DNA from: Pseudomonas wuhanensis
GTDB lineage: Bacteria > Pseudomonadota > Gammaproteobacteria > Pseudomonadales > Pseudomonadaceae
Length of the DNA stretch: 64,000 bases
NCBI RefSeq assembly: GCF_030687395.1
Contig: NZ_CP117430.1
Coordinates: 4,464,001-4,528,000, forward strand
Direction: 5' to 3'
Shown piece by piece: positions 32,708 to 47,473 of this stretch. The notes beneath the pieces are model-generated. The model made no database searches, was not told the DNA's origin, and saw nothing but the letters and a program-made list of their open reading frames with translations. Both the position numbers and the translations under genes were made by a program. How positions within the stretch are numbered: the first letter of the stretch is position 1; each line of letters opens with the position of its first letter.

Positions 32708-33079
32708 GGTGCTCCATCAAAATCCGATAAGCCGGGTTAACCATACGATCAATGGCATGGCGCAGGCTATGACTGTGACGGCTGCTGACTGTTCCCGCAT
32801 AACTCTCGTAGCAGTTGTCGAGCCTGCGCGGCTGCGTTCGGCTGCGAAGCAGTCGTAGTTCGATGAATACGGTTTGCCTGAAATAACGCGGACACTTAAT
32901 GGCAGCAGGGTCTTTTACATGATCCGCTTGCTCCCAATGTCTTCACCCATACGCGCCGCTGTAACCTTCCAGTCATGTGAAACCCGGCTCCTGCTGCTCT
33001 CAGAACCATGCATCCCAAGCAGCGTAATACTGCGTTCCATGCATACGCTTCACTTGCGTGAAAAAAAATAAAAATCTTG

Positions 33080-33110
33080 TTGACCTTCACACCACTGTCA
33101 AGGGTGGTAT
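33080..33110 (+). promoter_or_regulatory. Candidate MerR-type promoter of the cyclitol operon
   Basis: TTGACC (33080-33085) and TGGTAT (33105-33110) are separated by 19 bases, the long spacing used by MerR-family regulators. An imperfect dyad (ACCTT at 33083-33087, AAGGGT at 33100-33105) fills the spacer, and an A-rich tract lies upstream. A MerR gene (41417-41827) ends three bases after the operon. The remaining gap, 32708-33079, holds nothing I can identify. Confidence 0.45.
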
Positions 33111-33130
33111 GGCGCCGCCTGAAACAAAAA

Positions 33131-33160
33131 GGGGCAGGTTACCGCACGGTGACCTGCCCC
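33131..33160 (+). promoter_or_regulatory. Strong hairpin in the leader of the cyclitol operon
   Basis: A 14-bp stem (GGGGCAGGTTACCG and CGGTGACCTGCCCC) has one G-T pair and a two-base loop. No T run follows, so it is not an ordinary terminator. It may be an operator palindrome or an mRNA leader structure, 44 bases before the first start codon. Confidence 0.55.
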
Positions 33161-33204
33161 CCATCGGGCATCCAGACATGACGTCCAACAGGGAGCCAGG
33201 AAAC

Positions 33205-34386
33205 ATGCAAGCAGCAAAGCCTTTTCGAGTAGGTATGATCGGCGCCGGGTACATGGCGAAACTGCACAGCCTTTCAATGAACAATCTGGCCGGTTACACC
33301 GAAGATCCCGCCGACCGTTTCGACCTGGTGCGCATCGTCGACACCGATGCCCAGGCCGCAGAACGTGAAGCAACTCGCTGGGGCTGGTCCGAACACGGTA
33401 CCGACTGGAAAACCGTGACCCGCGATCCATCGATCGACGTGGTGGACATTGCTACGCCAAACGACTCACACCATGAAATCTGTCTCGATGCCTTCGCCCA
33501 TGGAAAGCATGTCATTTGTGAAAAACCGTTGTCAGTCAACAGCGAATTCGCTGCCGAAATGGCCCGCAAGGCGCACGCTTCGGGCCGGGTTCATATGGTC
33601 AATTTCACCTACCGCGCCTGGCCGGCCATCGCTCAGGCTCGTGCGTTGATCAAAAGCGGTGCCATCGGCAATGTCCGGCATTTCGAGGGGCACTTCTTCC
33701 AGGATCACAACAACGACCCGACCATTCCTCTGCACTGGCGCTTCAAAAAAGGCCCGGCCGGCGCCGGCGCACTCGGCGATGTGGGTGCACATATCATCGA
33801 CCTGGCGCGCTTTCTGGTCGGTGAAGTGGACAGCGTCGTGGCAACCACCCAGCGCTTTATCCAGGAACGTCCGCTGCCACATGACCGCAGCCAGAAAGGT
33901 CAGGTCGAGGTGGATGATCTGGCGGCGGCGATGGTCCAGTTCGAAAATGGCGCCACCGGCACGATCAAAGCGAGCTGGGCCCTGCCCGGTTTCAAAAATG
34001 ACGTGTACTTCGTGGTGGTCGGCGACAAAGGCGCTGTGCGCTTCAGCTGGGAGCGCAGCAACGAGCTGCAGTTTTTCGACAGCGCCGACCCACAACCTAT
34101 CTCCGGGTACAGGACCATCCCGCTCGGCAGGGCTCATCCCGGCGCCGAACTGTTCTGGTTCCCCGCTCTGGGTGGCGACTTGGGCGTCGGTGTAACCGCT
34201 CAGGGCATGGGTTATGGCGATGCATTCACCTTGAGTTTCCGGCATTTCATCAACGCCCTTAAAACCGGCGAATCGCCGGCACCGAATTTCGTCGACGGCC
34301 TGCGCTGCTGCGAAATCATCGATGCGATTTTGGCTTCGGCCGAGCAAGGACGCTGGGTAAAGGTCCACCGCACGATAATCGACTGA
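33205..34386 (+). CDS. Gfo/Idh/MocA family oxidoreductase (first gene of the cyclitol operon)
   Basis: A 393-residue NAD(P)-dependent dehydrogenase of the glucose-fructose oxidoreductase / inositol 2-dehydrogenase family. The Rossmann motif is GMIGAGYMAKLH near residue 10. The conserved CEKPLSVN carries the catalytic-region lysine, and GDVGAHIIDLARFLVG is the second-domain signature with the D-x3-H pair. The ATG at 33205 follows CAGGGAGCCAGGAAAC; ATG 33178 is an alternative. It is 42 bases before the cyclase gene and co-directional, so it should act on a polyol or cyclitol made by the pathway, for example oxidation or reduction at a ring hydroxyl. Confidence 0.88.
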   Translation: MQAAKPFRVGMIGAGYMAKLHSLSMNNLAGYTEDPADRFDLVRIVDTDAQAAEREATRWGWSEHGTDWKTVTRDPSIDVVDIATPNDSHHEICLDAFAHGKHVICEKPLSVNSEFAAEMARKAHASGRVHMVNFTYRAWPAIAQARALIKSGAIGNVRHFEGHFFQDHNNDPTIPLHWRFKKGPAGAGALGDVGAHIIDLARFLVGEVDSVVATTQRFIQERPLPHDRSQKGQVEVDDLAAAMVQFENGATGTIKASWALPGFKNDVYFVVVGDKGAVRFSWERSNELQFFDSADPQPISGYRTIPLGRAHPGAELFWFPALGGDLGVGVTAQGMGYGDAFTLSFRHFINALKTGESPAPNFVDGLRCCEIIDAILASAEQGRWVKVHRTIID

Positions 34387-34428
34387 TAAATCCCTGCCCC
34401 TCAGAACGACCCAATCGAGATAAAAGTT

Positions 34429-35652
34429 ATGGATAACTTGAATTCGCAGCAAGCCCCGCAACGTCGTCCGCACATTGCCAGCCCGCTGCCCAAATGTTCC
34501 GATCTGACCTGGCGCATGCATGCCCGGCAAGAGGTCAATTACAGCGTCTCGTTGAACACCGGTCTGCTCAAGCACACCAATGCCACGCTGGCTTATGGTT
34601 GCGGTGCCAACGGCGTGCAACCGGTCAGGCGGCTGGTGGTCATCGATGCGCGAGTCAACGAGCTTTACGGTGACGAATTCCGCGCCTATTTCGAGGCCTG
34701 GAAAATCCAGGTGGTCTGGAAAGTCATGTCTGGCGATGAAGCGTTCAAGACCATGGACCATACCATCGAAGTGGCACAGGCCATGGCGGCGGCCAATCTG
34801 CTGCGGCGCAATGAAGTGGTGATCGGCATCGGTGGCGGGGTGCTGCTTGACGTGGTGGGATTCGCGTCGAGCCTTTATCGCCGTGGCATTCCTTACATTC
34901 GTATCCCCACAACGCTAATGGGCCAGATCGATGCCGGTATCGGCATCAAGACCGGCGTCAATCACGACGACTATAAAAATCGCCTGGGCACCTATTACGC
35001 GCCGTCATCTGCGTTCATCGACCCCTACTTCCTGCAATCGATGGACCAGCGACACATTTCCAACGGTGTGGCGGAAATCATCAAAATGGCCCTGATCAAG
35101 GACCGCGAGCTGTTCGAATTGCTCGAAGAAATGTCTTCGCACCTGACACCCAAGGCGTTCGCCTCAAACGATCCCCGGATCAAGGAGATCATGTCCAGGG
35201 CTATTGCCGGGATGCTGGCTGAACTGGAGCCTAACCTCTGGGAGGCCGAACTGGCCCGCTGCGTGGACTATGGCCATACCTTCAGCCCGTCCCTGGAACT
35301 GTTGGCGGAACCGGCACTGTTACATGGTGAGGCGGTCGCGGTGGACATGGCGCTCTGCGTGGCACTGGCTGCGGGCCGGGGCTTGTTGTCCTGTGTTGAC
35401 GCGGATCGGGCCATTGACCTGATTGAAGTGGCAGGTTTGCCGGTGTCGCATCCGGTGTTCAACCTCCAGCTTCTGGAGAAATCCTTGATCGATACGATCA
35501 AGCACCGTGATGGACTGCAACGGATTCCACTGTCCGAAGGCATCGGCCAGACCGCATTTGTCAACGACGTCACAAGCGCAGAGTTGGCCCAAGCGTTGGT
35601 CTGGATCGAACAGCGTGAAAGCCGCTCCTCCGAACAAAGCTGTGTAGCGTGA
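34429..35652 (+). CDS. Sugar-phosphate cyclase, 2-epi-5-epi-valiolone synthase (EEVS) type
   Basis: A 407-residue member of the dehydroquinate synthase fold. The NAD-binding GGG is at 135-137 and the metal ligands inferred by alignment to DHQS are E216, H283 and H299 (NGVAEIIK, YGHTFSP, LLHGEAV). Several segments depart from DHQS and match cyclases that act on sedoheptulose 7-phosphate: LYRRGIPYIRIPTTL, IDAGIGIKTGVNHDDYKNRLG, and GHTFSP, where DHQS has GHTFGH. EEVS makes the C7 cyclitol precursor of acarbose, validamycin and cetoniacytone. Kinase, dehydrogenase, isomerase and phosphatase genes follow directly. Related cyclases (EVS, DDGS, DOIS) cannot be excluded without a tree. Confidence 0.82.
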   Translation: MDNLNSQQAPQRRPHIASPLPKCSDLTWRMHARQEVNYSVSLNTGLLKHTNATLAYGCGANGVQPVRRLVVIDARVNELYGDEFRAYFEAWKIQVVWKVMSGDEAFKTMDHTIEVAQAMAAANLLRRNEVVIGIGGGVLLDVVGFASSLYRRGIPYIRIPTTLMGQIDAGIGIKTGVNHDDYKNRLGTYYAPSSAFIDPYFLQSMDQRHISNGVAEIIKMALIKDRELFELLEEMSSHLTPKAFASNDPRIKEIMSRAIAGMLAELEPNLWEAELARCVDYGHTFSPSLELLAEPALLHGEAVAVDMALCVALAAGRGLLSCVDADRAIDLIEVAGLPVSHPVFNLQLLEKSLIDTIKHRDGLQRIPLSEGIGQTAFVNDVTSAELAQALVWIEQRESRSSEQSCVA

Positions 35653-35662
35653 GGAATCGCCC

Positions 35663-36763
35663 ATGGTAACGGACATCATCGAAAGATCGTCCCGACCCTT
35701 GGCGCAAAACGATGACGCCCAGAGCGTCATCGTTTTCGACATCGGTGGAACGCATTTTCGCTCTGGGCACTTTTCCCCTGAGCGAGGTCTTTCAAACGTC
35801 ATCTCTGAACCGGCAACCAGCTTTTTGACTCATTCAAGGCTCAGTGCTCGCGAACTCAAGGATGTGCTGCTTGAGTATCTGGTCGTAACGGCACGCCAGT
35901 CGGGTCTGCGCCATGCATCGATTTCACTCGGAGCAGCAATGAATGCCAGAACGGGACTGGTCTACGGTTCCGGGCCACTCTGGGGCTCCGATACAACGCC
36001 CTTTGACTTGCGCAGCGAACTCGCTGACAAGGCGCCCGATATCACCTGGCACAGCCTCAACGATGTCACGGCGGTGCTGTTGCACTACGCCAGTCTGAAT
36101 CGGCACAGCGACTTGCGAAAAATCCTGCTGATGACCGTCAGTTCAGGGATCGCCTGCCGAACCATCGACATGCGCAACGGCCGGATTCCAGTGGACGATG
36201 TCGGGTTGCAGGGGGAAATCGGTCACCTGCCTGTGGCATTGCCTGGCGGCCCGAACGGCGGATGCTTGGAGTTGCCCTGTGACTGCGGCGGCCAGAACCA
36301 CCTGGCGGCTTTCTCGTCAGGGCGCGGCATGAAGAAACTGCATGACGCGTTAGCCAAGAGCCAGCCTTCGAGGTGGACATCTTCGGCCATGCACCGCCTG
36401 ATGGATGTCGGTTGCGGGCATGAAGAAGCATTGCAAATGGCCCTTGAACGGCATGACGAATATGCCGAAAACCTGTTGTACCTAGCCACCCGACCGATCG
36501 CCAATGTGGTGCGGTATGCCCTGGCACTTGACCCGGAGATCGACCGGGTCGTGTTCGTCGGAGGCGTCAGTGTCAATCTGGAGTCCCACTATCTGCGTCT
36601 ATTGAACCGGCATTTTCAGGAAACCGGGCTGTACCTCACCAGCCAGCGCCTTCCCCACTACATCATGGACCGCATTGCGATTGCCAGACCCGAGCAGGCC
36701 GATGGACTGACAGGTGCGGGTCTTTATGCACGTCAGGTTCTGGAGCAACACGCTCATGAATGA
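35663..36763 (+). CDS. ROK-like sugar/cyclitol kinase
   Basis: A 366-residue kinase of the ROK/glucokinase type. The phosphate-binding motif is VFDIGGTHFRSG at about 24-35. A zinc-type cluster of cysteines with histidine follows (GGCLELPCDCGGQNH), then the adenosine motif region VVFVGGVSVNLES. The catalytic aspartate region appears as LNDVTAVLLHYA. The ATG at 35663 has GAGG upstream. In acarbose and validamycin pathways, kinases AcbM and ValC phosphorylate the 7-hydroxyl of EEVS-derived cyclitols, and a gene in this position next to an EEVS-type cyclase probably does the same. Its stop overlaps the next start. Confidence 0.83.
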   Translation: MVTDIIERSSRPLAQNDDAQSVIVFDIGGTHFRSGHFSPERGLSNVISEPATSFLTHSRLSARELKDVLLEYLVVTARQSGLRHASISLGAAMNARTGLVYGSGPLWGSDTTPFDLRSELADKAPDITWHSLNDVTAVLLHYASLNRHSDLRKILLMTVSSGIACRTIDMRNGRIPVDDVGLQGEIGHLPVALPGGPNGGCLELPCDCGGQNHLAAFSSGRGMKKLHDALAKSQPSRWTSSAMHRLMDVGCGHEEALQMALERHDEYAENLLYLATRPIANVVRYALALDPEIDRVVFVGGVSVNLESHYLRLLNRHFQETGLYLTSQRLPHYIMDRIAIARPEQADGLTGAGLYARQVLEQHAHE

Positions 36764-37955
36764 AAGCCTGAACACTGCCAACACTCACCTGGTCATAGCG
36801 CGCGACGGTCAACAGGTGTCGCTACAAGTCATGCCCACGCCGCGTATCGGTACCGGGGAGTTGCTGATAGCACCGTTGATTGCCGGGTTGTGTGGCACCG
36901 ATCTGCAGATTCTGCGCAGGGAACGCGATGATCCTGCGCGGGTGATCGGGCACGAAGGTGTGGCCCGCATCGTTCAGGTCGGGTCGCAAGTCCCCGGGCA
37001 CCTGCGCGAAGGCATGAACGTCATCATCAACCCTACCCATCCGAGCAATCCGCAAATGCTGCTGGGTCACCAACTGGACGGGATGTTTCAGCAGTACGTG
37101 AGGATCCCGTCGGCCATTGTCGAGGCGGGCCTCGTCGTACCGTTGCCAGTGGATCTGCCCACACGCCTCGCTCCGCTGATCGAGCCCCTGGCCTGTGTGA
37201 TCTATGCGCTGGAGTTGATGCTGGCGCGTAAACCTGCGGGGCCGCTGATCATCTATGGCGATGGCATCATCGGCCATCTCGCCGCACTGGTCGCCAAGCG
37301 GTATCTGGGGATCTGGACCCGAGTGGTGATGGTTCACCACGGCATCCGGGGCCTGCGCTGGAGTGAAAACAACAACTTCCGTTTCGACAGTCATCTGCTG
37401 TTCGATGATCTGGGTTCCGGCCTGACACTGGCGATGCAAGACCGCCCCGTCGCTGCGCTCATTGCCACCCCACGCAGTGCGACGCTCGCCTGCCTGGAAC
37501 ATGCCGTGACTCACTTGGCGAACAACGGGGTGATTGACCTTCTCGGTGGCGTGCCGAGCGGCTCGCGACTGTCATCTCTGCCCGAGTTAGGGGACATCGG
37601 CGAAATACGTACTCACAACTGTGGCGGCTTTCCTGAGCAGGGTCATTTCACTGCGGTCACCACCAACGAGCAAAAACCACTGATGCTCTACGGCCATCGA
37701 GGTGTGTCGAGCGCAAGGTTGGTCGAAGCAACACAGGTCCTGAAACAAACCCCGAGTGTGTTTTCACGCCTCGTCACCCACCTGCTGACACTTCCCCAGG
37801 CCGCAGAACTCATGCAGCAGATCGCTTGGTGCGGCGAACGTGAAATCGATGGTGAACGGTTCATGAAAGTCGGCATTGAAATCTCCCCCTGTACCAGCCT
37901 TCTCAAAGCTGACGTCCCCCACGAACACTTCGGAGAATTACCATGCTCGGCATGA
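36756..37955 (+). CDS. Zinc-type medium-chain alcohol dehydrogenase without structural-zinc cysteines
   Basis: A 399-residue medium-chain dehydrogenase. The catalytic-zinc cysteine lies in GLCGTDLQIL, and GHEGVARIVQVG is the GHE motif. A degenerate Rossmann segment, IIYGDGIIGHLAALVAKRYLG, is also present. The lobe that normally holds four cysteines for the structural zinc contains none (NVIINPTHPSNPQMLLGHQLDGMF region). The chosen ATG at 36756 overlaps the kinase stop by eight bases (ATGAATGA), indicating translational coupling. The in-frame ORF start at 36714 is rejected. By context it oxidises or reduces a ring hydroxyl of a cyclitol phosphate, a role comparable to AcbL; this is inference. 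Confidence 0.82.
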   Translation: MNESLNTANTHLVIARDGQQVSLQVMPTPRIGTGELLIAPLIAGLCGTDLQILRRERDDPARVIGHEGVARIVQVGSQVPGHLREGMNVIINPTHPSNPQMLLGHQLDGMFQQYVRIPSAIVEAGLVVPLPVDLPTRLAPLIEPLACVIYALELMLARKPAGPLIIYGDGIIGHLAALVAKRYLGIWTRVVMVHHGIRGLRWSENNNFRFDSHLLFDDLGSGLTLAMQDRPVAALIATPRSATLACLEHAVTHLANNGVIDLLGGVPSGSRLSSLPELGDIGEIRTHNCGGFPEQGHFTAVTTNEQKPLMLYGHRGVSSARLVEATQVLKQTPSVFSRLVTHLLTLPQAAELMQQIAWCGEREIDGERFMKVGIEISPCTSLLKADVPHEHFGELPCSA

Positions 37956-38719
37956 CCAAGGCTTCGCCTCGCAGCAACACCGTATTTGTCATGGGCGGCT
38001 CCACCGGCATCGGCCGTGGCATCGCTCAGGCCTTGTTGGGTGCAGGGTTGCAGGTGGTGGTGTTCAGCCGTTCCAGCCCCACCGACCAGCCAGGCCTTGA
38101 GGGTGTGATCTGGCGACCAATCGACCTCACCGATCCCGGTGAAAGTCGTCAGCGCCTGGACGCTGCAGTCCAGGAGTTCGGCAGCACGCTGGATGCGGTA
38201 TTTTACAGCGCCGTGTATTACGGCCCCAAACGAGCGCCGCTGTTGCAAGTCAGCGAACAGGAATGGCGCGATCAGCTTAACGTCAACCTGCATGGTTTAT
38301 GGCTGACTCTCGCCGCGACCCTGCCGGCCTTGCGCTTGCGCACTCCAGCGCTATTTGTCGGTGTGTCGTCGGAAGTGGTCTACAACGCTGGCCCCAATCG
38401 CTCGGGCTACGCCGCCACCAAAGCCGCGGCCGCCAGTCTGCTCGACTCCCTGGCCCAGGAGGAAGGTCCCGAGGGCGTACGGGTGGTGCAAGTGCTCCCG
38501 GAAAAAATGGTCGATACCGCTGGTATTCGCCAACGTCGTCCGGCAACCTTCGACTATTCAGACTACATGACCCCGCAGACCTTCCAGTCAATCACCCTGA
38601 ACCTATACAACAGTCGTGGTGAGGGTTTCCACGGTGACAGCCTGGTGGTCGGGCATAACGGGGATGCCTGGCGGGTCGAAGAAGCGCCTCCGGCGTCTCA
38701 AAGCAAGCAGTCTGCCTGA
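37943..38719 (+). CDS. Short-chain dehydrogenase/reductase (SDR)
   Basis: A 258-residue classical SDR. The cofactor motif GGSTGIGRG is near residue 18. The catalytic serine lies in VGVSSEVVYN and the Tyr-x3-Lys pair in SGYAATKAAA. The ATG at 37943 lies seven bases after GGAGA and overlaps the dehydrogenase stop by 13 bases, so the genes are coupled. Acarbose and validamycin clusters also pair an SDR with a zinc-type dehydrogenase. It may set the stereochemistry of a ring carbonyl, although the residues that decide substrate cannot be read here. Confidence 0.9.
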   Translation: MLGMTKASPRSNTVFVMGGSTGIGRGIAQALLGAGLQVVVFSRSSPTDQPGLEGVIWRPIDLTDPGESRQRLDAAVQEFGSTLDAVFYSAVYYGPKRAPLLQVSEQEWRDQLNVNLHGLWLTLAATLPALRLRTPALFVGVSSEVVYNAGPNRSGYAATKAAAASLLDSLAQEEGPEGVRVVQVLPEKMVDTAGIRQRRPATFDYSDYMTPQTFQSITLNLYNSRGEGFHGDSLVVGHNGDAWRVEEAPPASQSKQSA

Positions 38720-39534
38720 TGCTCGCCTCCACGCTATCTAACAGCATGCCGCGTATTGCCCTGGCAGACTGGCGGCTGCCCTTCAACGGCTCGCAAGCGC
38801 TGGGTTTCACCGCCTGGTGCGGGCTACATGATATTCAGATCGACTTCGGCGGCCCCGGCCGCGCACCGTCCCTGGACAGCGTGAGCCGACTCAGGGCGAT
38901 CAGGGACGCGAGCATCGCTCACGACGTGAACGTTCTAGCCGTGGCTTGCAACCAGATGAATGATCTGGGGCTGCACAGCGCGGTTCATTCGCCTGTGGGC
39001 GAAAAGGTGCGCTCACTGGTCATGCAAACCCTGGACGCGGCGGCTTTCCTGGGGGCTTCGATGGTCTTTTTCCCAAGCTTTCGGAAAAGTGCGATTGGTG
39101 ATCGGCAGACCCTGGAGGCCACCGCACGCCTGCTCCAATGGGCCTGTGAACAGGGCGAGCAACGAGCCTTGTTGGTCGCCAATGAAAACGATCTGGATGT
39201 TCAGGCGTCACGACGGCTTGTGGAACACGTCAACCAACGCAATTTCAGATTGATACTCGACACCTACAACCCGGTAAAGGTCGGCGTTCGGCCATCAACC
39301 CTGATTCTGGAACTGCCCTCGGTCTTTGCCTCGCAGGTTCATGTCAAGGACGGTCGATCAGGCCTCGATGCCTCGGTACCCCTGGGTTTTGGCGACGGTT
39401 CGGTTGCCGAAACCCTGGACACCTTGCGTGATATCCAGTCGTTCGACACCTATGTACTGGAAAACGATTACCGCTGCGGCGACCCCGCCCACCTGCAACA
39501 CGATCTCGGCTGGCTGCTCAATGCCACACGCTGA
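38719..39534 (+). CDS. TIM-barrel sugar-phosphate isomerase/epimerase family protein
   Basis: A 271-residue xylose-isomerase-like TIM barrel. Conserved acidic and His residues of the metal site fall at strand ends: NENDLDV, ILDTYNPVKVG, SQVHVKDGR and YVLENDYRCG. The ATG shares its A with the SDR stop (TGATG). In the acarbose pathway a 2-epimerase (AcbO) acts on 2-epi-5-epi-valiolone 7-phosphate. This protein is the only isomerase-type enzyme in the operon and is the natural candidate for such a step, but I cannot claim sequence homology to AcbO. Confidence 0.8.
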   Translation: MLASTLSNSMPRIALADWRLPFNGSQALGFTAWCGLHDIQIDFGGPGRAPSLDSVSRLRAIRDASIAHDVNVLAVACNQMNDLGLHSAVHSPVGEKVRSLVMQTLDAAAFLGASMVFFPSFRKSAIGDRQTLEATARLLQWACEQGEQRALLVANENDLDVQASRRLVEHVNQRNFRLILDTYNPVKVGVRPSTLILELPSVFASQVHVKDGRSGLDASVPLGFGDGSVAETLDTLRDIQSFDTYVLENDYRCGDPAHLQHDLGWLLNATR

Positions 39535-39563
39535 CCCACCTCATTTGAACGAGAGTCATAAAC

Positions 39564-40265
39564 ATGCAATTGAAATCCGGATTACTCATCAAGGCCGACG
39601 CTCTGCTCTTTGACATGGACGGCACATTGGTCGACTCCACCGCCGTCGTGGAACGCACCTGGGGACGCTTCGCCGAACGCCACGGATTGAATCCGGTCGA
39701 GGTACTGCATGCCGCCCACGGTCGCAGAACCGCGGAAACGGTCGAAATGTTCGCGCCACCCGGCGTTGATACCGACGCGGAAACCGCCCGAATCGTTGCC
39801 GAGGAAATCGCCGACACTGAAGGTATTGTCGAAGTGCCAGGCGCCCGACGTTTTCTGCAACGACTACCCGCCAATCGATGGGCAGTGGTGACCTCGGCGA
39901 GCCGCGAACTGGCCCTGCGCCGCATGAAGGCAGCCGGTGTCCCCATCCCCCCCATACTGATCAGCGCAGAAGATGTCTCTTCCGGCAAACCCGCGCCTGA
40001 AGGATACTTGGCGGCTGCACAGGCATTGGGCGTCGCACCTTGTGACTGTCTGAGCTTCGAGGACGCCAGAGCCGGCCTCGAGTCCGCTCACGCCGCCGGC
40101 ACCCGGGTCATTGCACTGGCGACCACGTTAAGTGCCGATGATTTGCGCGAGGAAGACTGGATTCCGGACTTCAGCGTGCTGGGTTTGCTCGACAACAGTG
40201 GCACTGCGTTGCACGTGTCGGTGCTGCCGACTCACACAGAGCAGCCCGTGACGACGCCCGCCTGA
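39564..40265 (+). CDS. HAD-superfamily phosphatase
   Basis: A 233-residue subfamily IA HAD phosphatase. Motif I is FDMDGTLVDS with both aspartates (D17, D19), motif II is VTSAS, the lysine lies in SSGKPAPEGYL, and motif IV is SFEDARAGLESA. Such enzymes remove phosphate from small sugars and polyols (glycerol-3-phosphatase and phosphoglucomutase-like relatives). In the operon it would remove the phosphate added by the ROK-like kinase, giving a free cyclitol. Acarbose and validamycin clusters contain comparable HAD genes. A GAGAG sequence precedes the ATG. Confidence 0.88.
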   Translation: MQLKSGLLIKADALLFDMDGTLVDSTAVVERTWGRFAERHGLNPVEVLHAAHGRRTAETVEMFAPPGVDTDAETARIVAEEIADTEGIVEVPGARRFLQRLPANRWAVVTSASRELALRRMKAAGVPIPPILISAEDVSSGKPAPEGYLAAAQALGVAPCDCLSFEDARAGLESAHAAGTRVIALATTLSADDLREEDWIPDFSVLGLLDNSGTALHVSVLPTHTEQPVTTPA

Positions 40266-40310
40266 CAGCTAACGCAGCCTTGAAAATGGATGATGGACAG
40301 GTGAATGGAT

Positions 40311-41414
40311 ATGCATAAACAGGAAGTACGTGCGTTAACCGGATTGCGCGGCATGGCAGCCGTTCTGGTCATGCTCTATCACTTCAACACCGGCCAGTTA
40401 CTGGAAGGTAGCCTGGGTAACCTCATGGGCAACTGCTACCTGATGGTGGACCTGTTTCTGGTGTTGTCGGGATTTGTGTTAACGCTCAACTACGGGCACC
40501 TGTTCGAGCACTCGCTCAAGATGCCGCAGATTCTGAGTTTTCTGTACCGGCGCCTGTCACGCATCTATCCGTTGTATGCCGTCATGACCCTCACCGCTTC
40601 GATACTGGTGGCCAACTCACTGATGGATCGCTGGCCGGGGCCGCCGGTACCGGTCAGCGCACTCATCAACCTGACAATGCTGCAAACCCTGGTCAATGTT
40701 CCAACCCTCGATACCCCGGGGTGGTCGGTCAGTGCGGAATGGATGGCCAGCCTCTGCTTCCCGTTCATTGTCCTGGCGCTGCTCAGACGTTCCTGGCCGG
40801 CGAACCTGCTGGCCATGTTGGGCGCTTTGTTGATGCTGCCGTTGATTGCCCACTCGCCGGCGCTGATCGACGAGCCCAAACGTTCAGGACTTCTGGACAT
40901 CTGGCACTACGGGACGCCGTACCCGGTCATTCGCTGCCTGGCGGATTTTGTCATGGGCGTTATCGCGTACCGCGCGCTGGAGTTCGGCTGGACCCGACGA
41001 GTGCTGGGCAATCCATGGTTTGCAGGCCTCATTTGCCTGGGGACCGTGGTTCTGATGACGTTCAAGCACGCGGATATCCTCATCGTCGCCTGCTTCCCCC
41101 TGCTGATTCTGGCACTGCAGGCCGGCAACAACCTCCCGGCGCGGATCATCGGCGGGCAGCCGTTTTATGGGTTGGGGGTGATTTCGTACAGCATTTACCT
41201 GGTGCACAACCAGCTCAACTATTTCATGCATGACCTGGCACGCGCCCTGACTCAGGCCGGGCTGGGTACTAACAGCGCCACTGCGGTCTCGATCGCGGTG
41301 TTCGCGAGTGTGGGGATACTGATCGCCCGCCTCACCTACCGCCTCATCGAGCAGCCGGCCATGCGCTACCTGCGCAAAACGCGGCTGTCCCGTGAAGTGT
41401 CGGTGACGGGCTGA
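40311..41414 (+). CDS. Acyltransferase-3 family membrane protein (OafA/YrhL type)
   Basis: A 367-residue polytopic inner-membrane O-acyltransferase. The N-terminal signature is RALTGLRGMAAVLVMLYHFNTG with the conserved histidine, followed by VDLFLVLSGFVLTL and FLYRRLSRIYPLY. About ten helices are predicted, with YSIYLVHNQLNYF in the late part. Family members transfer acetyl or other acyl groups to sugars and lipids at the membrane. As last gene in the cyclitol operon it could acylate the product or a conjugate. The ATG at 40311 fits GGACAGG at nine bases better than the ATG at 40305. Its stop is three bases from the convergent MerR stop. Confidence 0.85.
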   Translation: MHKQEVRALTGLRGMAAVLVMLYHFNTGQLLEGSLGNLMGNCYLMVDLFLVLSGFVLTLNYGHLFEHSLKMPQILSFLYRRLSRIYPLYAVMTLTASILVANSLMDRWPGPPVPVSALINLTMLQTLVNVPTLDTPGWSVSAEWMASLCFPFIVLALLRRSWPANLLAMLGALLMLPLIAHSPALIDEPKRSGLLDIWHYGTPYPVIRCLADFVMGVIAYRALEFGWTRRVLGNPWFAGLICLGTVVLMTFKHADILIVACFPLLILALQAGNNLPARIIGGQPFYGLGVISYSIYLVHNQLNYFMHDLARALTQAGLGTNSATAVSIAVFASVGILIARLTYRLIEQPAMRYLRKTRLSREVSVTG

Positions 41415-41416
41415 TC

Positions 41417-41827
41417 TCAGGCGTAAGCCACACTGCCGGACTCCCACATCGAGTTCGGCAGTACTTCGGGAATGTCCATCTGACCGGTTTCATCCAGGTA
41501 CTGTTCGAGAATCGACAGCGCCCGTGACTGATCTTCGATGGTCTGCTGCAACTTGAGCCGCTGATCCTTGAGCGTGGCGACAATTAGCGGGCAAGGATCG
41601 AACCTGACCGGCTGACTGATGATACAGGGCATTAACACCCTAATGACATTGAGCGTCAGTCCGGCTTCCTGAAGCGCCTTGATGTTCTTGAGAATGGAAA
41701 TGTCATTCTGACAATAGTCGCGATAGCCCGAAGACAGACGCATCGGACGTATCAGTCCTTGCTCTTCGTAATAACGGAGCATGCGTGCACTCACACCAGA
41801 CTTCTTCGACAGTTCATTGATCTTCAT
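41417..41827 (-). CDS. MerR-family transcriptional regulator
   Basis: A 136-residue MerR regulator. The winged helix domain is at residues 1-70 (KINELSKKSGVSARMLRYYEEQGLI, then GYRDYCQNDISILKNI). A coiled-coil dimerisation helix of about 90-120 (KDQRLKLQQTIEDQSRALSILEQYL) is followed by a short tail with no cysteine pair. That favours a small-molecule rather than a metal ligand. It overlaps the upstream NUDIX gene by four bases (ATGA). It sits at the end of the cyclitol operon, whose promoter has MerR-type geometry, so it is a good candidate local regulator. Confidence 0.9.
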   Translation of the reverse strand: MKINELSKKSGVSARMLRYYEEQGLIRPMRLSSGYRDYCQNDISILKNIKALQEAGLTLNVIRVLMPCIISQPVRFDPCPLIVATLKDQRLKLQQTIEDQSRALSILEQYLDETGQMDIPEVLPNSMWESGSVAYA

Positions 41828-42447
41828 GTGGGCGTCCTTGCTTCAAATTGACTGGACATCGATGGGCATTGCCCTGCGCCACCGAGCGTTGCGGCGGGTT
41901 GGCACACGCTCAACAGAATCGGTACGAGGGACAGACCGTCCGTCATTTGGCCACTGGCAATCAGCTGAAAAATTTCCGCTGGCGCGAACCAGCGCACCTG
42001 CAGGACTTCGTTGGTATCGAAGCGATCCGTCGCCCACTGCACATCGTGCGCCTGATAGATCTCGAAGCGCTGATCACTGCTGCCATAGGTGGGGTGAAAT
42101 GAAATCAGCGGCGCCCAGTCCCGTGCCGTGTAACCGGTCTCTTCGAGCAGCTCGCGCCGAGCGGCCTCAAGCGGGTTTTCGTGTGGATCGACACTGCCCG
42201 AAGGCAGTCCCCAGACCCGTTTACCGACCAGAAACCGATACTGATGGATGAGCAGTATCTTGCCTTCGCGGCAGGCCAGGATGCCCACCGCCGGGCGCTC
42301 ATGGTGGACGCAAAAATAATCGATGGATTGGCCATCGGGTAATTGCACTGCATTATCCACGACTGAAAACCATGGGTTCTCATGTACAACCGTCTTCCCT
42401 GTTACCCGCCAGACAGCTGACGTGGCGTCGTTCGGCTCATCAATCAT
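41824..42447 (-). CDS. NUDIX hydrolase
   Basis: A 207-residue NUDIX protein. The Nudix box (pattern GX5EX7REUXEEXGU) is complete, starting GSVDPHENPLEAAR and ending RELLEETGYT. The flanking layout, with VCVHHERPAVGILACREGKILLIHQYR before the box, resembles ADP-sugar pyrophosphatases. The start is taken at 42447 (MIDEPNDATS); in-frame starts at 42510 and 42573 would add unrelated residues. It is translationally coupled to the MerR gene. A role in clearing a nucleotide-sugar or coupling metabolism to the MerR signal is possible but not shown. Confidence 0.83.
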   Translation of the reverse strand: MIDEPNDATSAVWRVTGKTVVHENPWFSVVDNAVQLPDGQSIDYFCVHHERPAVGILACREGKILLIHQYRFLVGKRVWGLPSGSVDPHENPLEAARRELLEETGYTARDWAPLISFHPTYGSSDQRFEIYQAHDVQWATDRFDTNEVLQVRWFAPAEIFQLIASGQMTDGLSLVPILLSVCQPAATLGGAGQCPSMSSQFEARTPT

Positions 42448-42567
42448 TTGAAAGCATCCGTGCTGTTTTTTCCGATGTGCATCATTCGGCACATGGCTGC
42501 GGTGATACATTACTGTCCCATGGCGCGTCCGGCAATACAGCGTGTAAAGCCCGGGCTTGAGCCACGC

Positions 42568-42603
42568 GGCCAACGAGGAACCGACAGCAGCCCCTCGTTG
42601 GCC
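42568..42603. terminator. Hairpin between the MFS and NUDIX genes
   Basis: A perfect 11-bp stem (GGCCAACGAGG at 42568-42578, CCTCGTTGGCC at 42593-42603) has a 14-base loop and no T run. It lies just after the MFS stop on the minus strand, so it may terminate or stabilise that mRNA. Confidence 0.45.
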
Positions 42604-42608
42604 GAGAC

Positions 42609-43829
42609 TCAGGCAGTTGCCGATGGATAACTCAGCAAGCTGCGATCACGACTCAAGAACATCCCGAGCACCATGACCAACGTCACCAGGGAAATAGTCG
42701 CAGCAACCAGTGTGATGGAGTTCAACGGCATGCCGGCATCGATGACGCGGCCACCCACCCAGGCACCGATCGCGTTGCCCAAATTGAACGCACCCACGTT
42801 GAGCGTGGACGCATAGTTGGCGGATTCGCCGGCCACACGAATGATCAGCGCTTGCAGCAACATCCCCACGCAGAACGACAGGCAACCCCACACCGCCATG
42901 TTGATAACCGCCGGATACACGAAATGACTGGTCCAGTAGAAGCTGACCAGCGCTGCGATCAGGGCCATCAGTGTCAGCACCAGCGAACGGGTCAGGCTCC
43001 AGTCAGCCAGTCTGCCGCCCAGCAGGCCGCCGACGGTGATACCCAGGCCGCACACCAGCAACGCAACGCTGGCGAACTTCGGCTCGACATGGGTCACATC
43101 CTGCAGGATCGGCACGATGTAGGTGAAAAACGCGAACATGCTCGCCGACGCCATGACGCTGGTCATCAGGCCCAGCCAGATGATCGGGCGCTTCATGCCT
43201 TGCAGATTGGTTTGTGTGTTTTTCTTGCTGGCGCTGGCCTTGGCCGGAACCAGGTACCAGACCATCAGCAGCGAAATAATGCCCAGCGCGACCACACCCA
43301 GAAACGTGGTGCGCCAACCGTAGACTTGCCCCACCAGCGACCCGACCGGAACACCCAGCACGTTGGCCAGGGTCATACCGGTGAACATCAGGGTCATGGC
43401 CCGCCCTTCCTTGCCAGGAGGTGCGATACGCGACGCCAGAACCGCCGCCATACCGATGAACGATGCATGACTGAACGCGGTAAACACTCGGGCGACGATC
43501 AGCGAATTGAATCCGGGAGCGATCATGCAGGCAATGTTGCCCACCGTAAAAATCGCCATCAGGATCAACAATGCGCGCTTCTCTTCCATTTTGCCGACGA
43601 GCATCGCCAGCAACGGCCCGCCCACTACCACACCCAACGCATAACCCGACACCAGATAACCGGCAGACGGGATCGACACGCCAAGGTCGGCCGATACCTG
43701 AGGCAACAGGCCCATGATGATGAACTCGGCGGTGCCGATCGCAAAGGCCGCAATCGCCAACGCGAACAGCGGCCAACTCATGACGCGGTCGTCTTTCATC
43801 TGGATATTTCCATTCATCGCAATGCTCAT
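42609..43829 (-). CDS. MFS transporter, DHA1-type efflux (AraJ/YdhP-like)
   Basis: A 406-residue MFS protein with twelve predicted helices. The opening ALAIAAFAIGTAEFIIMGLLPQVSADLGVSIPSAG is typical of the arabinose/sugar and drug efflux subgroup (AraJ, YdhP, NepI). It overlaps the upstream epimerase gene by four bases (ATGA) and so forms an operon with it, divergent from a LysR gene. It could export the product of the neighbouring cyclitol cluster, but the LysR-epimerase-MFS trio may equally be an independent unit. Confidence 0.9.
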   Translation of the reverse strand: MSIAMNGNIQMKDDRVMSWPLFALAIAAFAIGTAEFIIMGLLPQVSADLGVSIPSAGYLVSGYALGVVVGGPLLAMLVGKMEEKRALLILMAIFTVGNIACMIAPGFNSLIVARVFTAFSHASFIGMAAVLASRIAPPGKEGRAMTLMFTGMTLANVLGVPVGSLVGQVYGWRTTFLGVVALGIISLLMVWYLVPAKASASKKNTQTNLQGMKRPIIWLGLMTSVMASASMFAFFTYIVPILQDVTHVEPKFASVALLVCGLGITVGGLLGGRLADWSLTRSLVLTLMALIAALVSFYWTSHFVYPAVINMAVWGCLSFCVGMLLQALIIRVAGESANYASTLNVGAFNLGNAIGAWVGGRVIDAGMPLNSITLVAATISLVTLVMVLGMFLSRDRSLLSYPSATA

Positions 43830-44743
43830 TTTGAAAACCCCTGACTCTGGCTGTCCCGAATCCAGGAAATGACATCCGAATACTGCGGTTCCCAGCCGAA
43901 GTCACGGGCCTTCTGGCCACTGACCCGAATGTTCGAACCCAGCCCGTACTCGGCTTCTTCCGGGTCATGTGCACAGCATTCACGCAGAATGTATTCCATG
44001 GGTACCGACTGAGTACGTCCACCGAACCCAAGCTTTTCGCTGATGACCTGTGCCAGCTCCTTCATCGACACCTCGCCGTTCTCGGCGAACAGGTAAGCAC
44101 CACTTTCGGCCTTATCCAGCATCAAAAGCGACAGGCTGACCAGGTCATCGATGTGCACAAAAGCGGTACGATTTTCACCACTGCCGACATACACACCCAC
44201 CCCATGCTCACGGGCCAGTCGTGTCAGCAGCGGAATCTGAATCGAGTCCTTGTGCAGCGCTCGCCCTTCGCCAAACACCATCGTCGGGCATACCACCAGC
44301 GTTCTAAGGCCCTGCTGACCGGCCATTCTGATGGCATTGTCGATCGCCACCCGACCGACTTTCTCCAACCGTGGCCGAGGCTGGGTGTGCTCGGTCCACT
44401 GTTGATCGGAACCTGCCCCCTCCGCGCGATCACCAATGACACTGGTGCCACTGTAGTGAATCAACGTCTTGCCCGAACCCCGCAAGCTCTGCAGCAAAGT
44501 GGAGACCACATAGGCATTGTCCGAGTTGGCTGCGTTGACGATAAGGTCCACCGCCAGTACCTGCTTCTTGATGGTCTCAGTGTCATAGAGCGTCCCGAAC
44601 ACCGGGATGATCCCCAGTTTCCCCACCTCGTATGCTTGATGAGCGGAGCGCACCAGGCCATAGACCTCATACCCCCGGTCGATCAGCGCCATGGCCATCG
44701 ATCCACCGATGTACCCCGTCACACCCGTCACAAATGCCTTCAA
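43826..44743 (-). CDS. NAD(P)-dependent epimerase/dehydratase-like protein (TTG start)
   Basis: A 305-residue extended-SDR protein. The cofactor motif is VTGVTGYIGGSMA at the N-terminus and HYSGTSVIGD supplies a serine/threonine region; the usual Tyr-x3-Lys is not obvious. Related proteins are atypical or isoflavone-reductase-like SDRs. The start codon is TTG at 44743, supported by AGGAG eight bases upstream and by the fit of the Rossmann motif to the very N-terminus; no ATG is available. It is coupled to the downstream MFS gene and divergent from the LysR gene. Confidence 0.82.
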   Translation of the reverse strand: MKAFVTGVTGYIGGSMAMALIDRGYEVYGLVRSAHQAYEVGKLGIIPVFGTLYDTETIKKQVLAVDLIVNAANSDNAYVVSTLLQSLRGSGKTLIHYSGTSVIGDRAEGAGSDQQWTEHTQPRPRLEKVGRVAIDNAIRMAGQQGLRTLVVCPTMVFGEGRALHKDSIQIPLLTRLAREHGVGVYVGSGENRTAFVHIDDLVSLSLLMLDKAESGAYLFAENGEVSMKELAQVISEKLGFGGRTQSVPMEYILRECCAHDPEEAEYGLGSNIRVSGQKARDFGWEPQYSDVISWIRDSQSQGFSK

Positions 44744-44953
44744 AATGTCGACTCCTGTCGTTCTGAAAATTATTAAAAGCGCCGTTGCTCATCCTGAGTG
44801 CCGTCATATCCGTATCGCTCGTTACTGCCCGGCAGGTCCTGCGCAAAGGGCACATTGCGGCTGCTGTGAAGGTTAGAGCGATAGGCATTGCGGAAAAAGT
44901 AGGTTACCGTTCCAGTCTGTACGGCCGTCAACGTCCGCAATCCAGGATCCTTC

Positions 44954-45829
44954 ATGCTCGAATCCGTTGCTGCTTTTTCCGTGTTTGTCCAGGTCGCCGA
45001 ACTGCGCAGTTTCGTGGCGGCCGGCCGCGCCATGGGCGTCTCGGCTTCTGCCATCGGCAAACGGATTTCAAGGCTGGAGGAGCGCCTGGGCGTTCAGCTG
45101 TTTCAGCGCAGCACCCGCAGCATTTCCCTGACCCCCGAAGGTGAAAAGCTGCTGGAGCGCAGCCGACGCATTCTGGATGAGATAGAAGAAATCCAGACGG
45201 AACTGAGCAGCGCCGCCGACTTGCCACAGGGTAAACTCAAAGTCAGCCTGGCCCCCATCAGTGACGTGTTTCTCGATCACCTGGCGCGCTTCAATGAACG
45301 CTATCCGCAAATCGAGCTGGAACTCGATTACGCCGAGCGCAACGTTGACATCATCCAGGAAGGTTTCGACGCGGCGATTCGCGTCGGCGACGGTGCCGAC
45401 AGCAATTTGCGCGCGCACCACATGGGGGATTTCCGCCGGCTGATCGTCGCCTCCCCCGCCTACCTACTTCGCCATGGGGTGCCGACCCGCCCTCAGCAAC
45501 TGCTCGAGCACAAGTTGCTGCACTATCGCTCACCGAACTCGGGCAAGGTCGAACCCTGGCCACTCAATGATTGCGGTGAGCTGCACCTGCCGACTTCAAT
45601 GATCTGCAACGACATCAACACCCGAATCGATTTCGCCCTCAAAGGCCTAGGCATCGCCTGCCTGCCCGATATCTCGATTCGCAAGCCGTTGCGTGAAGGG
45701 CTGTTGACACCGATGTTGCTGGACCACACGGCCAACTCGACAAAGATCCACGCACTCTGGCCCCACGCGCATCAGCACACTTCACGCCAGAAAGCCTTCA
45801 TCGATTTCATCAAGTCCGTCGATTTCTGA
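44954..45829 (+). CDS. LysR-family transcriptional regulator
   Basis: A 291-residue LysR regulator of the large CrgA/YhjC-like group. The HTH region is AFSVFVQVAELRSFVAAGRAMGVSASAIGKRISRLE, followed by LGVQLFQRSTRSISLT. The effector domain starts near residue 90 (GKLKVSLAPISDVFLDHLARF). AGGA lies six bases before the ATG. It is divergent from the epimerase-MFS operon with a 210-base gap and probably regulates it. The ligand is unknown. Confidence 0.92.
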   Translation: MLESVAAFSVFVQVAELRSFVAAGRAMGVSASAIGKRISRLEERLGVQLFQRSTRSISLTPEGEKLLERSRRILDEIEEIQTELSSAADLPQGKLKVSLAPISDVFLDHLARFNERYPQIELELDYAERNVDIIQEGFDAAIRVGDGADSNLRAHHMGDFRRLIVASPAYLLRHGVPTRPQQLLEHKLLHYRSPNSGKVEPWPLNDCGELHLPTSMICNDINTRIDFALKGLGIACLPDISIRKPLREGLLTPMLLDHTANSTKIHALWPHAHQHTSRQKAFIDFIKSVDF

Positions 45830-45943
45830 GGGCATACCGGCTGGCGCGTCGAAAGCCTGTTACTGGCGTCGGCGCCCTCGCTGGCCTTCAATTAAAGTTC
45901 ACCGCCTGATCCCATGGCGCCTGCCTTTGCTCTGGGGGACAAG

Positions 45944-47473
45944 ATGAACCGCAATGACGTTCTGATTATCGGTGCAGGGCCCACCGGCCTGGTGCTGGCG
46001 CTTTGGCTGAGCAAGCTCGGCGTGCAGGTGCGCATCATCGACAAGACGTCGGCCCCCGGTACCACGTCCAGGGCTCTGGCCGTTCAGGCACGAACCCTTG
46101 AACTGTATCGCCAGCTCGACCTCAGCGACGCCGTGGTGCTGAACGGCCATCGCGTGTGCGCAGCGAATTTCTGGGTCAAGGGCGAACCGGTCGCGCGCCT
46201 GCCGCTGAGCACCATCGGCGAGGGTCTGACGCCCTATGCGTTTCTGGAAATCTATCCTCAAGACGAGCACGAACGCCTGCTGATCGAACGCCTGGAGGCC
46301 TTCGGTATTACGGTGGAGCGCAACACCGAACTGCAAAGTTTCGAGGAAACCGGCGACGGCATCACCGCCCGGCTGCGCTTGCCCGATGGCCAGCAGGAAA
46401 CCTGCCAGGCCTGTTATCTCGCCGGCTGCGACGGCGCCCGGTCGATTGTGCGCAAAACGCTGGACACCGGTTTTCCGGGCGGCACTTACCAGCAGATTTT
46501 CTACGTGGCAGATGTGCAGGCTCGCGGCCCCACATTCAACGGTGAACTGCATGTGGACCTTGATGAAGCCGACTTCCTCGCTGTATTCCCCTTGGCCGGC
46601 GAAGGTCGCGCCCGCCTGATCGGTACGGTTCGCGACGAACGCGCCGAGCGTGTCGAAACCCTCCAGTTCGAAGACGTCAGCAGCCGTGCCATCGAGCATT
46701 TAAAGGCACAGATCGATCAGGTGAACTGGTTCTCGACTTACCGCGTGCATCACCGGGTTGCGGATCACTTTCGCACGGGGCGCGCGTTTCTGTTGGGTGA
46801 CGCCGCCCATGTCCATAGCCCGGCGGGTGGCCAAGGCATGAACACCGGGATTGGCGATGCGATCAATCTGGCCTGGAAACTCGCGACGGTATTGAGCGGT
46901 GGCGCCACGACCAAACTGCTCGACAGTTATGAAACCGAACGTATCGCCTTTGCCCGGCGCTTGGTGGCCACCACTGATCGGGTCTTCAGTTTCGTCACGG
47001 CCGATGGGCCAATAGCCGACTTGGTGCGTATGCGCATGGCACCCTTTTTGATCCCGAAAATGATCTCGTTTGAAGCGGCCCGGGAGTTCATGTTTCGCAC
47101 GGTGTCGCAAACCACCCTCAACTATCGCGGCATGCCGTTGAGCGAGGGCGTTGCAGGCCAGGTTCACGGCGGTGATCGGCTGCCCTGGGCCCACGACGGT
47201 GAAGGGGACAATTTCGAATCGCTGAAAAACCCGACCTGGCAGGTGCATGTGTATGGCGACACCAGCGACGAGATGATTGCCTGGTGCACCGAGCATCACC
47301 TGCCGTTGCAGGTGTTCGACTGGCGGCCAGCGTTTGAAACGGCGGGGCTGGCGCGCAACGGGTTTTACCTGCTGCGGCCGGATACGTATGTGGCGATTGC
47401 CGAGTACAGCGCCGATCCGAAGGTAATCGAGCGGTATTTCCGGGACCGTGGGATTCGGCCTTTCTTCGGCTGA
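45944..47473 (+). CDS. FAD-dependent aromatic monooxygenase (PheA/MhpA/TfdB-like)
   Basis: A 509-residue group A flavoprotein hydroxylase. The FAD-binding Rossmann motif is IIGAGPTGLVLA at about 7-18, the DG motif lies in AGCDGARS near 165, and the GD motif in FLLGDAAHVHSPAGGQGMN near 285. A C-terminal thioredoxin-like domain typical of phenol hydroxylases follows at about 400-505. GGGGGAC lies five bases before the ATG at 45944, preferred over 45914. It probably hydroxylates a phenolic or polyketide-like compound with NAD(P)H and O2. It stands alone, with no ring-cleavage genes next to it. Confidence 0.88.
   Translation: MNRNDVLIIGAGPTGLVLALWLSKLGVQVRIIDKTSAPGTTSRALAVQARTLELYRQLDLSDAVVLNGHRVCAANFWVKGEPVARLPLSTIGEGLTPYAFLEIYPQDEHERLLIERLEAFGITVERNTELQSFEETGDGITARLRLPDGQQETCQACYLAGCDGARSIVRKTLDTGFPGGTYQQIFYVADVQARGPTFNGELHVDLDEADFLAVFPLAGEGRARLIGTVRDERAERVETLQFEDVSSRAIEHLKAQIDQVNWFSTYRVHHRVADHFRTGRAFLLGDAAHVHSPAGGQGMNTGIGDAINLAWKLATVLSGGATTKLLDSYETERIAFARRLVATTDRVFSFVTADGPIADLVRMRMAPFLIPKMISFEAAREFMFRTVSQTTLNYRGMPLSEGVAGQVHGGDRLPWAHDGEGDNFESLKNPTWQVHVYGDTSDEMIAWCTEHHLPLQVFDWRPAFETAGLARNGFYLLRPDTYVAIAEYSADPKVIERYFRDRGIRPFFG

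Follow-up and report, generated by a model that had tools for sequence, protein, structure and literature searches.

A putative C7-cyclitol biosynthetic island in Pseudomonas wuhanensis and its relation to known carbasugar gene clusters

C7 cyclitols include acarbose (a diabetes drug), validamycin (a crop fungicide) and streptol (a root-growth inhibitor). In Actinoplanes, AcbC acts as the cyclase, AcbM as the 7-kinase and AcbO as the 2-epimerase, AcbL converts 5-epi-valiolone 7-phosphate to valienone 7-phosphate, AcbN reduces this to valienol 7-phosphate, and AcbJ removes a 7-phosphate (PMC9200736; PMC7081202; papers given by PMC number are drawn on in excerpt throughout). Five phosphatases, including AcbJ, share the same 7-phosphate substrate (PMC9200736), and the locus tags of acbK, acbM, acbL, acbN, acbO and acbC are consecutive (PMC6599336). 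Active-site residues separating 2-epi-5-epi-valiolone synthase (EEVS) from desmethyl-4-deoxygadusol synthase (DDGS) have also been described (PMC4426668). Here we describe a 13-gene island of Pseudomonas wuhanensis with an EEVS-type cyclase and a predicted cyclitol pathway resembling that of acarbose, located in a window of 64,000 nucleotides (the whole stretch of DNA that was analysed; contig NZ_CP117430.1, positions 4,464,001 to 4,528,000).

The cyclase and the conserved core module

Eight successive genes of the island, which include the core module, lie on one strand:
33205..34386, + strand: Gfo/Idh/MocA dehydrogenase (Gfo; Pfam; best PDB match 6a3f, then scyllo-inositol dehydrogenase types)
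34429..35652, + strand: EEVS-type sedoheptulose 7-phosphate cyclase (ValA, 4p53, as best PDB match; site residues; tree)
35663..36763, + strand: ROK kinase, predicted cyclitol 7-kinase, AcbM-like (Pfam ROK; DIGGT, ND and CDCGG motifs)
36756..37955, + strand: zinc-type medium-chain dehydrogenase (MDR), predicted AcbL-like dehydratase (Pfam ADH_N)
37943..38719, + strand: short-chain dehydrogenase/reductase (SDR), predicted AcbN-like reductase (Pfam adh_short; GGSTGIG and YAATK motifs)
38719..39534, + strand: TIM-barrel epimerase (TIM), predicted AcbO-like 2-epimerase (homologue names, residues, model fold)
39564..40265, + strand: HAD sugar phosphatase, predicted AcbJ-like (Pfam; DMDGT motif)
40305..41414, + strand: membrane acyltransferase, Acyl_transf_3 (Pfam; recurrence with EEVS)

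Against PDB structures the cyclase scores 369.5 bits with ValA (4p53), 246.6 bits with 5tpr, which we take to be a DDGS, and at most 140.5 bits with 3-dehydroquinate (DHQ) synthases, and none of the eight NCBIfam families listed for it exceeds its cut-off (aroB reaches 225.9 against 305 bits). At 34 sites picked by the authors, mostly columns invariant among relatives, the cyclase agrees with ValA at 33, the one difference being T versus S at 284. The metal ligands E216, H283 and H299 are present, and D280 and H359, presumably the sites that discriminate EEVS from DDGS, are as in ValA, where 5tpr has A and T and two DHQ synthases have N with S or V. Phylogenetic analysis separates the cyclase with 100% support from the Helicobacter pylori DHQ synthase and from the AroB that is encoded separately in the same genome. 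Identity as a true DHQ synthase is thus ruled out by structure matches, residues, tree and the separate AroB. Among the 120 matches listed, the top one, from Pseudomonas sp. TWP3-2, shares 93% identity; the remaining full-length relatives are at most 71% identical, and two proteins that are 288 residues long show 79-81% along part of the sequence.

The surroundings of the cyclase were compared with 82 EEVS loci, comprising the best 80 of 277 from GTDB genomes and two Pseudomonas stretches; locus counts rest on tblastn positions, open reading frame calls on high-GC loci being crude. EEVS-ROK-MDR occur in this order in 33 of these loci and ROK-MDR-SDR-TIM in 30. The full series EEVS-ROK-MDR-SDR-TIM, in order and on a single strand, is present in 26 loci, and in 12 it is followed directly by HAD. 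The arrangement is therefore not due to chance, and these positions show the order of the EEVS-led module to be conserved across phyla. Furthermore, because the acb locus tags are consecutive, ROK-MDR-SDR-TIM corresponds to the order of acbM-L-N-O, and by analogy with the acarbose enzymes we infer that the core supplies a 7-kinase, a 2-epimerase, enzymes forming valienone and valienol phosphates, and a 7-phosphatase.

Features of the individual proteins bear on these assignments. MDR relatives, the window included, carry CG[TS]D in 52 of 53 cases, GHE in all 53 and CxxCxxC in none. In the TIM protein, E156, H208 and E248 are invariant and D181 is conserved at 90% or more (33 sequences), an E-D-H-E set that we assume to be the metal site of the TIM epimerase fold. 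A sequence search of PDB gave no useful match for this protein (E 0.001); its predicted model (mean pLDDT, the per-residue model confidence, 93.6) is closest in PDB to the L-xylulose-5-phosphate 3-epimerase UlaE. The HAD protein scores 164 of 282 bits with the NCBIfam sugar phosphatase model. A Pfam scan that covered 12 island genes, all but the LysR gene, detected no aminotransferase, glycosyltransferase or nucleotidyltransferase family.

A preliminary description of this DNA had proposed eight tightly packed genes in the above order, an EEVS-type cyclase, and early C7-cyclitol functions lacking amination and glycosylation. Pfam classes and frame coordinates agree with the first of these, each of the eight proteins scoring above the curated cut-off for its named class and successive frames between 33205 and 41414 being spaced by 42, 10, -50, -13, -1, 29 and 39 bases. 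The cyclase does not group with true DHQ synthases, and the gene families, together with the recurrence of the acyltransferase with EEVS elsewhere, fit the third. The C7-cyclitol interpretation is thus supported, the product itself being predicted from the genes; the TIM-barrel "isomerase" of that description holds and can be refined to an AcbO-like epimerase candidate, and its zinc-type dehydrogenase to an AcbL-like enzyme, from which a dehydrated product would be expected. The MDR frame is open from GTG 36714 but probably starts at ATG 36756, which would leave an 8-base overlap with ROK. Scans for promoters (one site versus 4.7 in shuffled sequences) and terminators (13 terminator-like sites versus 11.1) gave no signal above chance and are uninformative either way as to co-transcription.

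The predicted pathway and its alternatives

The two other genes of the eight, encoding Gfo and the acyltransferase, also recur with EEVS. Gfo is 72-78% identical, by best tblastn segment, in five of the 82 loci (L012, where the match is short and lies at the end of the stretch, L020, L036, and the Pseudomonas clusters L028 and L091), and the acyltransferase is 48-50% identical by the same measure in three (L012, L020 and L036, from two metagenome-assembled genomes (MAGs) and Prodigiosinella confusarubida). L020 has the order EEVS-...-HAD-acyltransferase-esterase-MFS-Gfo and L036 the order MFS-Gfo-acyltransferase-MerR (- strand)-hydrolase-EEVS-...-HAD-NUDIX; since Gfo and the acyltransferase recur with EEVS in other gammaproteobacteria at other positions, both are probably part of the pathway. 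In L036 a divergent core (MDR 29%, TIM 33%, EEVS 51%) contrasts with more similar Gfo (74%), MerR (57%) and NUDIX (55%) proteins, so that tailoring genes and core seem to move separately. With a limit of E 1e-120, Gfo was detected in two of 398 Pseudomonas genomes, each of which also has the cyclase cluster; the Gfo of Pseudomonas sp. T1-3-2, broken up by repeats, falls short of this limit. In Actinoplanes, shunt cyclitols of the acarbose series arise in part through a Gfo/Idh oxidoreductase (PMC7081202), and it is plausible that Gfo likewise oxidises, reduces or epimerises the ring. A PDB sequence search gave no useful match for the acyltransferase (E 1). Its homologues (120 listed of 280) show an identity gap between 44% and 39%, and 12 of the 29 above the gap share a contig with a listed EEVS or TIM match, versus 0 of the 91 below it, equal longest-contig size being taken as the same contig.

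The island is likely to direct synthesis of a valienol-type C7 cyclitol, and we favour, with moderate confidence, the fuller interpretation that the island is a biosynthetic cluster for an acylated valienol-type cyclitol that is exported. In such a pathway, the cyclase is predicted to convert sedoheptulose 7-phosphate to 2-epi-5-epi-valiolone, ROK would act as the 7-kinase and TIM as the 2-epimerase, MDR would give rise to valienone 7-phosphate and SDR to valienol 7-phosphate, and HAD, as a 7-phosphatase, would likely release valienol or its C-1 epimer. Gfo would likely adjust oxidation state or stereochemistry, its point of action being conjectural, and the membrane acyltransferase would likely acylate the cyclitol before export, the nature of the acyl group also being conjectural. 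Export by the MFS transporter and control by the MerR and LysR regulators are conjecture.

The acylation step might instead be unrelated to the secreted product, in which case a free valienol- or valienone-type cyclitol would be released and the acyltransferase would modify the cell surface or something else. Peptidoglycan/lipopolysaccharide O-acetylase is the name given (JGI) to many of its relatives, so that a surface target is possible, and in the other two such Pseudomonas clusters (L028 and L091), with Gfo, EEVS, ROK, MDR, SDR and TIM, no match to the acyltransferase was found. The contig association of the acyltransferase's near homologues with EEVS or TIM and its recurrence at differing positions in L012, L020 and L036 argue against this alternative, which we regard as rather unlikely.

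The relatives' names and the absence from L028 and L091 also weigh against an acylated product as such, and several further observations count against the interpretation as a whole. Within L028 (L028:8350-9980, Pseudomonas sp. T1-3-2), Gfo is filled with tandem repeats of ~247 bases and its frame runs into EEVS, and in L091 (Pseudomonas G287) only a HAD fragment is left downstream of TIM (L091:5043-5256); these losses may represent decay or may be a sign that a simpler product suffices. The split of the cyclase and ValA from 5tpr has 52% support in the tree. An AcbO function name (JGI) is attached to only two of 56 TIM matches, and three of the 56 are named L-ribulose-5-phosphate 3-epimerase. 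Finally, the likeness to AcbM, AcbL, AcbN and AcbO is one of enzyme class and gene order.

The repeats within the L028 Gfo gene could be a real expansion or an assembly artefact. A Gfo-EEVS fusion in this locus was considered as proof of a shared pathway and was dropped, as it consists of the ~247-base Gfo repeats running into the EEVS frame.

It is improbable that acylation serves only for a time, to protect the cyclitol or mark it for export, with an esterase freeing the active sugar mimic afterwards. In favour of this reading, esterase-like genes of the beta-lactamase family adjoin the acyltransferase in L012 and, by clustering, in L020, and an alpha/beta hydrolase gene adjoins EEVS in L036; against it, no such hydrolase was found among the island genes covered by the Pfam scan. 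Degradation or remodelling of a sugar or inositol-like compound, with the cyclase recruited to another substrate, is very improbable given the EEVS-type site residues and the same gene order behind EEVS across phyla, despite the matches of Gfo to scyllo-inositol dehydrogenase-type structures after 6a3f and the resemblance of the TIM fold to sugar 3-epimerases.

Extent, distribution and mosaic history of the island

The limits of the island and five further genes are as follows:
32776..45943, no strand: island between the DUF1615 and FAD-monooxygenase genes (comparison with relatives L094, L095 and L096)
41417..41827, - strand: MerR-family regulator (Pfam; 47-57% identical in three of the 82 EEVS loci)
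41824..42447, - strand: NUDIX hydrolase, start placed by eye, searches having used 41824-42456 (Pfam; 55% in L036)
42609..43829, - strand: major facilitator superfamily (MFS) transporter, possible exporter (Pfam)
43826..44743, - strand: NAD-dependent epimerase/dehydratase-like protein (Pfam; 61-63% in two of the 82 loci, both Pseudomonas)
44954..45829, + strand: LysR-type regulator (47-59% identical in seven of the 82 loci; the Agrobacterium vitis gene at this position is annotated LysR)

Four Pseudomonas relatives were compared around the DUF1615 gene. In L094 the DUF1615 gene directly neighbours that for the FAD-monooxygenase: window homology stops at 32775 and restarts at 45944, with 131 bases between. 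This near-empty site shows that the unit is a 13-gene island of ~13.2 kb. The C7-cyclitol gene set of the preliminary description is retained, its eight-gene extent having to be widened by the MerR, NUDIX, MFS, NAD-epimerase-like and LysR genes. L096 has the same breakpoints with ~3.0 kb of other DNA in the slot, L095 has breakpoints at 32780/45933 with ~2.5 kb of other DNA, and the fourth relative, L097, gave no monooxygenase match. GC content of the island (57-62% per kb) shows no contrast with the flanks. The slot in L095 (L095:9463-12006) holds a gene that by eye is TonB-dependent-receptor-like, as if the site were an insertion hot spot. Elsewhere in the window, a 949-residue frame (window:10343-13192, - strand) reads by eye as a carrier domain, an AMP-binding enzyme and an acyltransferase in one protein, and a 221-residue frame (window:56152-56817, - strand) resembles by eye part of an IS110-type transposase.

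The MerR, epimerase-like and LysR genes are also found beside EEVS in L028 and L091, and MFS genes 36-40% identical, from a family with many paralogues, lie no more than 8 kb from EEVS in 15 of the 82 loci. The MFS and LysR matches are weaker evidence, since both families are large.

Distribution was assessed in genome samples drawn from larger groups (398 Pseudomonas, 369 from the class and 398 from the phylum). The cyclase was detected at E 1e-60 in four of the Pseudomonas genomes, its own included (the others 44-56% identical), at E 1e-80 in three genomes of the class, again including its own (the others 39-42%), and at E 1e-80 in one genome of the phylum, its own. The island is therefore rare in Pseudomonas. 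The cluster with the 44% identical Pseudomonas cyclase (L092) has EEVS with a weak ROK match only. Plasmid records with a cyclase relative at E 1e-50 number 20, 17 of them from Streptomyces and one from A. vitis. Among individual loci, the grapevine-associated A. vitis VAR03-1 plasmid pRvVAR031a carries LysR-EEVS-ROK-MDR-SDR-TIM-MFS-MDR2 (L102:9884-18522), the record of the stink-bug symbiont Pantoea sp. Eser holds a cluster in short broken frames (L009:10001-15200), and a MAG labelled Candidatus Saccharibacteria (L055) has two EEVS-like frames with ROK and MDR close by, although its label may be a binning error.

Of the 38 rows with EEVS, ROK, MDR and TIM, among them the window, 29 went into the trees; nine actinobacterial rows (L017, L026, L030, L031, L032, L034, L035, L061 and L073) were dropped to thin that group, and L009 was not among the 38. 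The cyclase tree groups the window with L007, L008, L010 and L022 (Salinicola MAG, Phyllobacterium, A. vitis and Chimaeribacter) with 97% support, and the combined ROK, MDR and TIM tree places the window, L012, L020, L028 and L091 apart from all others with 100% support. Forcing the cyclase onto the ROK/MDR/TIM arrangement was rejected by the approximately unbiased (AU) test (p = 0.003), as were the reciprocal constraint (AU p = 3e-71) and an earlier topology constraint on ROK, MDR and TIM (AU p = 0.007); two first cyclase topology tests were uninformative because the best tree already agreed with their constraints. The conflict between the trees indicates that the island is a mosaic, the simplest reading being that the cyclase has been exchanged separately from the other genes.

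It can be proposed, tentatively and with more doubt than confidence, that certain gammaproteobacteria, some Pseudomonas among them, produce a natural product of an undescribed class, an O-acylated valienol/streptol-type glucose mimic acting as a glycosidase inhibitor or plant-growth effector, from a mosaic island with independent exchange of the cyclase, of the actinomycete-type core and of a Gfo/acyltransferase tailoring set. The Pseudomonas cluster is compact, and its predicted product carries neither amino nor glycosyl groups; it would be a simple model in which to work out the Gfo and acylation steps and the role of such sugar mimics in the environment of the organism. The conflicting trees also make exchange of the committed-step enzyme between lineages directly testable.

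Comparison with known systems

The acarbose cyclitol module (acbC, M, L, N, O and J; Actinoplanes sp. SE50/110) contains, as judged by enzyme class and gene order, the same six kinds of enzyme as the island, with ROK-MDR-SDR-TIM in the acbM-L-N-O order (PMC6599336). The island differs in having the cyclase ahead of these four genes and the phosphatase after them, in the additional Gfo and acyltransferase, and in having no counterpart of the 1-kinase acbU (only one ROK is present), the nucleotidyltransferase acbR, the glycosyltransferases or the amino-sugar genes. Nor does it represent a complete acarbose/validamycin-type pseudosugar cluster, neither a nucleotidyltransferase nor a glycosyl- or pseudoglycosyltransferase having been found among the scanned genes.

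A published survey of C7-cyclitol synthases in prokaryotes (Osborn et al. 2017) may mention Gram-negative cyclases.

Two groups of proteobacterial clusters bear comparison. In the LysR-EEVS-ROK-MDR-SDR-TIM-MFS-MDR2 clusters (A. vitis pRvVAR031a, L007-L010 and L022), the cyclases are closer to that of the island than in any of the other loci (64-81% by best segment) and LysR and MFS relatives of the island genes are present, but a second MDR replaces HAD, the acyltransferase and Gfo. All eight gene types of the 33205-41414 stretch are found in the gammaproteobacterial L012, L020 and L036, which differ from the island in gene order, extra esterase/hydrolase genes and regulators; no product of these clusters was reported in the literature searched. 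Likened by description, the streptol/kirkamide pathway of Candidatus Burkholderia kirkii plasmid pKIR01 is a proteobacterial EEVS route to glucose-mimic cyclitols, in which streptol also occurs as a glucoside (PMC8599487); no Burkholderia record was among the 20 plasmid matches to the cyclase. In the ebo operon a UbiA-type prenyltransferase, EboC, adjoins the EboD cyclase (PMC5133447), and no such prenyltransferase family was detected in the scanned island genes.

The same EEVS-ROK-MDR-SDR-TIM-HAD order as in the island is found in L015 (Streptomyces cyaneochromogenes), which is related to the C7-cyclitol cluster of S. lincolnensis and has no match for Gfo, MerR or the acyltransferase. The predicted S. 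lincolnensis cluster includes SLCG_5038 (phosphatase) and SLCG_5041 (AcbL/SalM-like), spaced like the HAD and MDR genes of the island, and four carbasugars have been reported from the species (PMC10717218); the genes between these two presumably match those of the island. Judged by gene content and order, the core of the island is common to actinomycete carbasugar clusters. Its Gfo/acyltransferase variant in Pseudomonas appears to be undescribed in the open-access literature searched, the core on which it is built corresponding to known chemistry.

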